From: Candidatus Kaiserbacteria bacterium
Lineage (GTDB): Bacteria > Patescibacteriota > Minisyncoccia > Phycocordibacterales > Phycocordibacteraceae
DNA length: 40,221 nucleotides
Assembly: GCA_023264445.1 (NCBI GenBank)
Contig: JAHFMN010000001.1
Coordinates: 29,707 to 69,927, forward strand
Reading direction: 5' to 3'
The notes beneath the pieces were generated by a model. It saw only the letters and a program-made list of their open reading frames with translations, was not told the DNA's origin and searched no databases. The translations under genes were made by a program, and so were the position numbers. Below are positions 22,637 to 24,847 of this stretch, piece after piece (the first letter of the stretch is position 1; every line of letters begins with the position of its first letter).

Positions 22637-22879
22637 ATGTATTTTGTATACGTATTACTTTCTGAAAAAGCAAAGAAATCCTACGTCGGTTCCACCGCTG
22701 ATGTCACTCGACGCCTAACGGAACATAATGCGGGTCAAAGTCCATTTACAAAAAGATTCAAGCCTTGGGACCTTGTTTATACTGAGTCATTTCAGACTTA
22801 TGCGGAAGCTTTAAAACGTGAGAAGTACTTAAAGACGCACGCTGGAAGAAAATACCTAAAGGAGGTAGTGTTTAACTGA
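22637..22879 (+). CDS. Single-domain GIY-YIG endonuclease
   Basis: The 80-residue protein is one GIY-YIG domain: YFVYVLLSE ... SYVGSTADVTRRLTEHN ... ALKREKYLK, with the Tyr, Arg and Glu of the active site. It resembles the UPF0213/YhbQ-type small nucleases common in this group, whose cellular role is not settled. The stop codon ends 1 bp before tRNA-Gln, so gene and tRNA must share a transcript. Base composition drops sharply compared with dnaX. Given the rearranged tRNA 3' end next door, a role in that insertion is possible but unproven. Confidence 0.85.
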   Translation: MYFVYVLLSEKAKKSYVGSTADVTRRLTEHNAGQSPFTKRFKPWDLVYTESFQTYAEALKREKYLKTHAGRKYLKEVVFN

Positions 22880-22880
22880 T

Positions 22881-22951
22881 TGCCCGATCGTCTAATGGTA
22901 GGACAGCGGCCTTTGAAGCCGTGAATTGGGGTTCGAATCCCTGTCGGGCAG
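22881..22951 (+). tRNA. tRNA-Gln (TTG)
   Basis: The acceptor stem is TGCCCGA with TCGGGCA, discriminator G. The D arm is GTCT-AATGGTA-GGAC, the anticodon stem GCGGC/GCCGT, loop CTTTGAA (anticodon TTG), and the T arm TGGGG-TTCGAAT-CCCTG. All stems pair. Downstream reads CAA, so CCA is not encoded here; a second copy of the 3' end followed by CCA lies 166 bp downstream. Confidence 0.95.
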
Positions 22952-23118
22952 CAAAAGTGCGGAGCAGCTTTTGCTGCCACGAAGCAGGCGCGGGGCGCCT
23001 GCGTCAGGGATTCGAAGACCTTGCGAGCATAATTCGCGATTTCCTGAAGCGAATTATCCGCAAGGTGTACTGAAGCTGTAAGCTTCGAAAAGCGTACTCG
23101 CGGTCCCTGTCGGGCAGC
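22938..23118 (+). repeat. 15-bp direct repeat of the tRNA-Gln 3' end bracketing an insertion
   Basis: TCCCTGTCGGGCAGC occurs at 22938-22952 (in the tRNA) and at 23104-23118. The second copy continues as GCCA, that is discriminator plus CCA, while the copy in the working tRNA continues as GCAA. This is the pattern expected when an element inserts in a tRNA 3' end, restores the gene and displaces the original end. Confidence 0.8.
22947..23098 (+). other. Hairpin-rich segment, possible structured RNA
   Basis: Four inverted repeats follow each other: 22947-22957/22968-22978 (11 bp, uses the tRNA 3' end), 22984-22990/22996-23002 (7 bp), 23018-23037 with 23049-23066 (17 bp with one bulge) and 23072-23077/23081-23086 (6 bp, 3-nt loop). 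No open frame covers it. It also contains the reverse complement of 12 nt of the tRNA T arm (23005-23016). Nature unknown: structured RNA, mobile-element ends or recombination site. Confidence 0.55.
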
Positions 23119-23127
23119 CAGTTTGAG

Positions 23128-23529
23128 ATGGTTTCGGAATCTGAAGAGTGCAGAGACTTCATTTGTATTACAGATAGATGTAGAATGCATATGATGCTTA
23201 ATATAAAAACAGGAGAATACCAAGTCTTTGACTCCGGCGTCGTTCATGTGATGGAAGAGGGGAAAACAATCATCTCTTTGGGAGAGACGAATATAGAACT
23301 CATTTTTGAAACAAAAACCGGAGAAGAACAATCAGTAGACTTTAAGGCCGTCGATAAAAAGAACGCTCAAATTCGATTCACGAACGTGCAAGGCTCCCTT
23401 GGTTTCGGTACGACAAGACCATTCCAAATCGGTGAAAGTGATGGAAGGGCTCTTTTCCTTACATTTGTTACTCGTTCATTGAATGATACATACTTGCGAA
23501 CCTTTGAGTACACTTTGTATATAAAATGA
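23128..23529 (+). CDS. Orphan soluble protein, first gene of a two-gene unit
   Basis: The 133-residue protein is beta-rich, without signal peptide or membrane span, and was not recognised. It overlaps the next gene by ATGA, so the two are co-translated. The start is uncertain: ATG at 23128 has no promoter or ribosome site, whereas TAGAAT at 23181-23186 lies 7 nt before an in-frame ATG at 23194, which would give 111 residues and fits the local rule. Codon use is AT-rich. Confidence 0.55.
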   Translation: MVSESEECRDFICITDRCRMHMMLNIKTGEYQVFDSGVVHVMEEGKTIISLGETNIELIFETKTGEEQSVDFKAVDKKNAQIRFTNVQGSLGFGTTRPFQIGESDGRALFLTFVTRSLNDTYLRTFEYTLYIK

Positions 23530-23786: not shown

Positions 23787-23817
23787 ACTTGTTTAGAGGA
23801 GAGTCAGTTATAAAAAA

Positions 23818-23856
23818 GTCGCCAGTAAACCTCTTGTAGTGTCTCGCGGTACAATG
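23818..23856 (+). promoter_or_regulatory. Promoter-region repeat, copy 1, upstream of the M23 peptidase gene
   Basis: This 39-bp block (GTCGCCAGTAAACCT ... CGCGGTACAATG) recurs with changes at 24811-24847. It ends in TACAAT, 7 nt before the ATG at 23863, so it carries the -10 of the peptidase gene. Confidence 0.6.
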
Positions 23857-24756: not shown

Positions 24757-24810
24757 TGAAAAGTGTCTAATTTCGTCCCTGTTCGAAGAGAGTTGAAATG
24801 ATCCTGGAAA

Positions 24811-24847
24811 GTCGCCAGAAAACCTGATGGGGTTTGGCGGTATAATG
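24811..24847 (+). repeat. Promoter-region repeat, copy 2, after the M23 gene
   Basis: GTCGCCAGAAAACCT ... GGCGGTATAATG matches the block at 23818-23856. Here TATAAT is followed 11 nt later by an ATG that opens only 7 codons, so this copy drives no visible gene; it may be a remnant or serve a small RNA. The rest of 24757-24913 shows nothing else. Confidence 0.5.

Follow-up and report, generated by a model that had tools for sequence, protein, structure and literature searches.

We describe a family of short DNA elements at the 3′ ends of tRNA and tmRNA genes, represented by a single copy beside tRNA-Gln in a 40 221-nt stretch of a Candidatus Kaiserbacteria genome (hereafter the window; GenBank assembly GCA_023264445.1, contig JAHFMN010000001.1, positions 29 707–69 927). 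The interval that follows this tRNA gene is an insertion that has rebuilt the tRNA end, and it belongs to a new, previously unnamed, order-wide gene-less family carrying an antisense copy of its own target. Members of the family duplicate the tRNA 3′ end where they insert, are absent from orthologous empty sites, occupy many tRNA genes as well as tmRNA, and are also found in tandem. They are probably non-autonomous mobile DNA units of ∼150–190 bp (166 bp in the window) that enter the 3′ ends of Paceibacterales tRNA and tmRNA genes in one orientation, leave the tRNA complete, and are moved in trans by what would be a host enzyme. Literature searches found no description of the element, most subscription papers lying beyond their reach.

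tRNA genes are classic docking sites of mobile DNA, and one integrase normally uses one or a few of them. Here a single short gene-less family occupies tmRNA and the tRNA genes of many isotypes, in roughly half of the order's sampled genomes, and is re-matched to each target. This raises the questions of how a non-coding element switches target so freely, and of which enzyme would move it in bacteria whose genomes are so strongly reduced. Annotation is affected as well: in carrier genomes the element is partly responsible for the tRNA 3′ ends and for the absence of an encoded CCA.

Insertion at tRNA-Gln

The tRNA-Gln(TTG) gene was identified at 22881–22952 of the window (ARAGORN; Rfam RF00005, 60.4 bits). 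Its 15-bp end, TCCCTGTCGGGCAGC, is present exactly at 22938–22952 and again at 23104–23118, an offset of 166 bp, with no third match in the 40-kb window at up to three mismatches. The upstream copy continues with CAA and the downstream copy alone with CCA. The space between them is non-coding and strongly folded; it holds several hairpins (inverted repeats I3–I6), and its fold is more stable than 200 of 200 shuffles (z = −3.8, or −6.6 with the tRNA included). A further inverted repeat, I1, matches the tRNA T-arm at 22932–22946 to 23002–23016 (15 nt, 93% complementary). An inverted-repeat scan found no terminal inverted repeat at the borders of the interval. Among Rfam models the tRNA was the sole match above threshold, with no group I or II intron, ribozyme or other known RNA family. 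A first-pass annotation, made from sequence alone, had pointed to the displaced repeat with its CCA, to the hairpins, and to an interval too small for an integrase gene; all of these hold, 166 bp leaving no room for such a gene.

The order dnaX–tRNA-Gln is syntenic across relatives, whose fetched loci are given L-numbers here and their genomes G-numbers. At L011 (DnaX 84% identical), L017, L018, L019 and L029 the site is empty: a single tRNA-Gln end, CCA at once, and no insert. A homologous insert fills the same place in G027 (DnaX 87%) and in L004. The flank found past the downstream copy in the window (CAGCCAGTTTGAGATRGG...) directly follows tRNA-Gln in L156, L159, L161, L163, L169, L173 and L175. 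Because of the empty sites, and because this displaced flank lies directly after tRNA-Gln elsewhere, the window interval is recognized as an insertion with a rebuilt tRNA end. Presence at an orthologous tRNA turns over within a genus. The annotation had proposed just such an entry into the tRNA 3′ end, and had named a CCA-bearing empty tRNA-Gln site in relatives as the check; the syntenic empty sites bear it out. The genome search that it also suggested gave no second copy, since the window's genome holds a single element and the others sit in relatives.

Structure of the window element

All parts lie on the forward strand. The tRNA-Gln (22881–22951) is still complete and takes its 3′ end from the upstream copy, with acceptor TCGGGCA at 22944–22950 and G73 at 22951, then CAA. 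This copy, U (22932–22952), comprises T-loop TTCGAAT, T-stem CCCTG, acceptor, G73 and C, and includes the first 15-bp repeat. It runs into a terminal palindrome (22947–22978), in which the acceptor end plus tail GGCAGCAAAAG (22947–22957) pairs with an antisense acceptor CTTTTGCTGCC (22968–22978), and whose loop is a perfect terminator-like hairpin in many relatives. Hairpin HP-A, AGCAGGCGCGGGGCGCCTGCGT (22983–23004), hypervariable yet perfectly paired across the family, splits the antisense acceptor from the antisense T-stem. The antisense T-arm, CAGGGATTCGAA (23005–23016), is the exact reverse complement of TTCGAATCCCTG in the tRNA (22932–22943), and its stem part pairs with the downstream T-stem copy too.

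Core hairpin P2 (23017–23066) is formed by ACCTTGCG (23018–23025) with CGCAAGGT (23059–23066), around an inner stem (23029–23037 with 23049–23057). The rest of the core (23067–23103) carries the conserved GTACTG, hairpin P3 (GAAGCT-GTA-AGCTTC, 23072–23086), GAAAA, mini-hairpin P4 (GCG-TACT-CGC, 23092–23101) and GG. The downstream copy of the tRNA 3′ end, D (23104–23120), has its CCA encoded (T-stem 23105–23109, acceptor 23110–23116, G73 23117, CCA 23118–23120). Beyond it lies the displaced original flank, GTTTGAGATGGTTTCGGAATCTGAAGAG... (23121–23150), which stands directly after tRNA-Gln in empty-site genomes. The predicted junction of a 166-bp circle from this copy is CGCGGTCCCTGTCGGGCAGCAAAAG.

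Family and distribution

A DNA search of relatives found homologous inserts beside Gln, Glu, Trp, Arg and Asn tRNAs. The family was then surveyed with a covariance model of the element core, which matched 191 of 397 genomes of the order, in 94 of 179 genera and often several times per genome. In a phylum-wide sample core matches occurred in 7 of 286 genomes, all seven of the same order and none outside it. Carriers include organisms named as Nomurabacteria, Kaiserbacteria, Taylorbacteria and other Paceibacterota. Viral contigs gave no exact match to the core end.

Context was scored for 132 distinct copies. Of these, 78 have the end of a same-strand tRNA or tmRNA no more than 130 nt upstream, covering 14 tRNA isotypes plus tmRNA: Gln 15, Glu 11, Arg 10, Ser 9, Leu 6, Lys 5, Trp 4, Tyr 3, Pro 3, tmRNA 3, Cys 2, His 2, Val 2, Gly 2 and Asn 1. 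The occupied tmRNA 3′ ends are at L072 2362–2472, L050 471–581 and L152 1501–1596. Orientation is fixed, since no upstream tRNA lies on the opposite strand (78 same, 0 opposite). A further 13 copies are second in a tandem array. Copies are ∼150–190 bp each, with no gene in any; longer variants with a 173–176 nt core (L043 1328–1502, L107 783–955, L123 2847–3022) appear to have an extra hairpin between P2 and P3.

These data bear on whether the interval is merely an attL–attR scar, left by a larger integrated element whose middle was deleted, as the first-pass annotation had allowed. The duplicated tRNA 3′ end is the usual mark of an integrated island, and kilobase-sized gene insertions do stand at tRNAs in the same group (L069, L017, L167). 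However, more than 130 copies share one short, covarying, gene-less build, and the ∼155 fetched loci contain no split or long gene-bearing form. We regard a scar as the least probable of the alternatives considered here, and the suggestion of a remnant is not upheld.

Antisense copy of the adjacent tRNA end

The neighbouring tRNA end is present in antisense in nearly all members of the family. Among the 78 tRNA- or tmRNA-adjacent copies, the antisense T-arm 12-mer is free of mismatches to its own tRNA in 46 and has no more than one in 65, whereas comparison with other isotypes gives 3.6 mismatches on average; in 48 the antisense acceptor 7-mer is perfect. In 54 of the 78 the upstream end has N73-CA in place of N73-CCA. 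The downstream acceptor was scored in 75 copies: 40 show a single mismatch at most, and in 30 it is lost (at least three of seven positions wrong). In these 30 copies the antisense acceptor still averages 0.5 mismatches in 7 to the upstream tRNA, and the downstream T-stem 0.4 in 5 to the tRNA's own T-stem. Cores that are 90–99% identical occur at different tRNAs with the arms matched to each, for example 99% for a His/Lys pair and 94% for a Ser/Arg pair within one genome.

Such matching might arise with no mobility at all, if the duplicated and antisense ends were produced locally by template switching, with copying that folds back at the tRNA terminator and then resumes on the template. This would account directly for the wobble-free match of antisense arms and palindromes to the local tRNA. 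It cannot yield a core (P2, GTACTG, P3 and P4) that is 90–99% alike at unrelated tRNA loci, and in the pairs seen, cores at different tRNAs group by transfer history rather than by locus. As a full explanation we consider template switching very unlikely, though it may act afterwards on a mobile element to keep the arms matched.

At L009 1730–1915, before 1501 in L171 and before 1196 in L046, tRNA ends carry a second type of insert, whose core is different (...GTCGAGAGTRCTTA...TTAGTAACTCGTGACCG plus the tRNA end). The L009 insert also has an antisense T-arm, so the design is not confined to one core.

Pairing in DNA or in RNA

The core covaries strongly: 94% of cells are paired, 33 of 35 pairs have changed on both sides, and the covariation score is 0.60, against 0.17 for shuffled and at most 0.11 for slid alignments. 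HP-A is hypervariable, a comparison of 63 copies yielding 59 distinct sequences. Counted in a fixed register, its seven inner pairs (pairs 1–7) comprise 770 Watson–Crick, 2 G–T and 1 A–C; RNA-type scoring, in which the stem was free to extend into the flanks, gave 41 G–T. tRNA acceptor stems at the same loci have 4.7% G–T. Mismatches between the tRNA T-arm and its antisense (11 G–T, 8 A–C) likewise show no wobble preference. The near-absence of G–T from such variable stems argues that they pair at the DNA level and are not those of an RNA gene; it is the pattern that stems working, or copied, as DNA would be expected to show. An origin of HP-A by copying from nearby DNA was also considered and rejected, 36 of 63 cases against 28 expected being no meaningful excess.

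The covariation could also be that of a stable structured RNA gene, or of a cis-acting RNA such as a terminator, processing signal or antisense regulator, lying after tRNAs. The folding z-scores of −3.8 and −6.6 suit such an RNA, as do the terminator-like loop of many copies and the antisense complementarity that is kept after decay of the downstream acceptor. Against it stand the orthologous empty sites with turnover within a genus, the duplication of the tRNA end downstream, the tandem arrays, an HP-A almost free of G–T where same-locus tRNAs have about 5%, and the lack of any matching Rfam family. We judge a structured RNA unlikely, if the most credible of the explanations that dispense with mobility.

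A transcript might instead act like a self-splicing or RNA-guided intron, in which case the downstream copy would be joined to the 5′ part of the tRNA, and the antisense T-arm would serve as internal guide to both exons. The antisense T-stem is able to pair with both copies, and when the whole transcript is folded in silico the 5′ acceptor is predicted to pair with the downstream copy. Yet the downstream acceptor is lost in the 30 copies noted above while the upstream tRNA stays intact, so splicing cannot be required; no group I, group II or other ribozyme model matches, and the terminator-like loop usually precedes the antisense arm. Splicing thus seems slightly less probable even than template switching. 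A motif seen after tRNA-Gln in L010 (∼1450–1500) and L032 (∼1400–1500), CTGAGGAGTCYTCGACGAAGGGC, resembles part of a hammerhead-like core.

Search for a candidate enzyme

No integrase gene lies inside or beside the window element. Of the recombinase classes, only the Xer-type tyrosine recombinase was found in nearly all of the carriers examined, usually as one gene per genome. At least one tyrosine recombinase gene was found in 58 of 60 genomes tested, mostly one. The window's genome has exactly one, far off on another contig (C3) and Xer-like as judged by eye from its sequence. A dedicated tyrosine recombinase was rejected on gene numbers, which are alike in element-rich and element-free genomes.

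Other candidates were set aside as well. The Y1 transposase (PF01797) of a REP/RAYT system is absent from 9 of 30 element-rich genomes, and no element match lies near ten Y1 genes. Reverse transcriptase, which a retroelement would use, occurs in 13 of 29 element-rich genomes, but in none of the other 16 nor in the window's genome. The DEDD transposase of IS110-type elements was found in 1 of 30 genomes tested. GIY-YIG matches differ weakly between element-rich and element-free genomes (∼3.9 and ∼2.8 per genome), and in two element-rich genomes the single GIY-YIG match has the low score that long UvrC-like proteins typically give in this search.

Neighbouring genes and gene-cassette arrays

A solo GIY-YIG gene of 80 aa (22637–22879) ends just before tRNA-Gln in the window, and similar solo genes lie near tRNAs in L002, L022, L032, L035, L078, L122 and L141. 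Gene-cassette arrays anchored at tRNA-Gln, and in one case at tRNA-Asn, were seen at L017 1496–3056, L167, L179 and L069 1021–2303. Their units have one gene or none and are separated by near-identical sites, GTTCCAACATCGTCCCAGACTNCCAG, with a tail resembling the tRNA end, in an integron-like layout; the two array-bearing genomes tested (G012, G423) have a single Xer-type recombinase each. To the right of the window element, a direct repeat AAAGTCGCCAGTAAACCT at 23815–23832 and 24808–24825 stands ahead of genes at 23839 (M23 peptidase) and 24914, and the genes on this side may be cassettes of the same tRNA-anchored type.

Proposed mechanism

In its working form the element is probably folded, either as a single DNA strand or as a cruciform; here we infer a step beyond DNA-level pairing itself. 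The structure recognized would be built from the end of the tRNA together with the antisense copy of that end, plus hairpins HP-A, P2, P3 and P4. The antisense arm is able to pair with both the upstream and the downstream T-stem copies, and could thereby bring the two ends into register for excision or insertion. Arms might be kept matched to the adjacent tRNA by hairpin-templated copying (palindrome correction), by activity of matched copies only, or by both. The candidate enzyme is the single Xer of the genome, or some other enzyme. A bolder form of this scheme would make the family a class of self-guided mobile DNA, in which the antisense arm is a guide that reads the tRNA end, aligns the copies during folded-strand recombination and is rewritten at each new tRNA, such that one family colonizes every tRNA and tmRNA gene of the order; we put this forward as a speculative possibility, itself rather doubtful.

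Several observations weigh against a mobile element moved in trans. Among the enzyme families tested none is linked to the element: tyrosine recombinase numbers do not follow it, and many carriers lack Y1/RAYT, reverse transcriptase and IS110 genes. Excised forms were not observed. For 41 of the 132 copies (∼31%), no tRNA was detected alongside and the copy is not the second of a tandem array; some of these are displaced behind other insertions at the same tRNA (e.g. L069), and no convincing protein-coding sequence is common to the regions upstream of displaced copies. P2 and P1 contain some G–U-type pairs, which leaves room for a transcribed form. Part of the re-targeting seen in these pairs of copies could come from a strongly constrained core instead of from recent movement, and selection for a host function at the tRNA could also maintain the antisense arm.

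Comparison with known systems

The element resembles IS110 bridge RNAs and group I introns in having a single internal sequence complementary both to the target and to the other junction; it differs in that the IS110 gene is so rare in these genomes and in the lack of an Rfam intron match. With REP/RAYT and IS200/IS605-type single-stranded DNA elements it shares a conserved GTA-rich tetranucleotide before a small hairpin and possible guide pairing between element and target. The guides of those systems are 4 nt; here the element is tRNA-specific and the antisense spans 12–26 nt.

Integron attC sites and clusters of them lacking a local integrase (CALIN) offer a folded-DNA-like shape conserved over variable sequence, an unpaired hairpin as an extrahelical feature, and tandem arrays. 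In the element, by contrast, the GTTRRRY/RYYYAAC core boxes are lacking (on reading the sequence, both GTT and AAC are absent from 22953–23103), the site is a tRNA, the target's sequence is present in both orientations, and the one tyrosine recombinase found in the window's genome is of Xer type, as classed by eye. Miniature inverted-repeat transposable elements (MITEs) and other non-autonomous elements are similarly short, gene-less, multi-copy and moved without an enzyme of their own. The family is gene-less, duplicates its target and is multi-copy across and within relatives (single-copy in the window's genome), but it has no terminal inverted repeats and no parent transposon was found; it is strictly tRNA-targeted, and the duplicated target is a functional gene end. 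The annotation had offered a MITE-like or integrase-in-trans element: movement in trans fits, whereas a strict MITE does not, for want of terminal inverted repeats and a parent transposase.

Another comparison is with the tRNA-targeting integrative elements (phages, integrative and conjugative elements, and islands) that use tyrosine integrases. They too take the T-arm/acceptor end of a tRNA or tmRNA gene in fixed orientation, and rebuild and duplicate its 3′ end; in the window element, likewise, a direct repeat of the tRNA 3′ end marks both borders, with an intact tRNA at one. Our family differs from them in its size of 150–190 bp without genes or integrase, in the antisense copy of the target that it carries internally, and in its use of nearly all tRNA isotypes.
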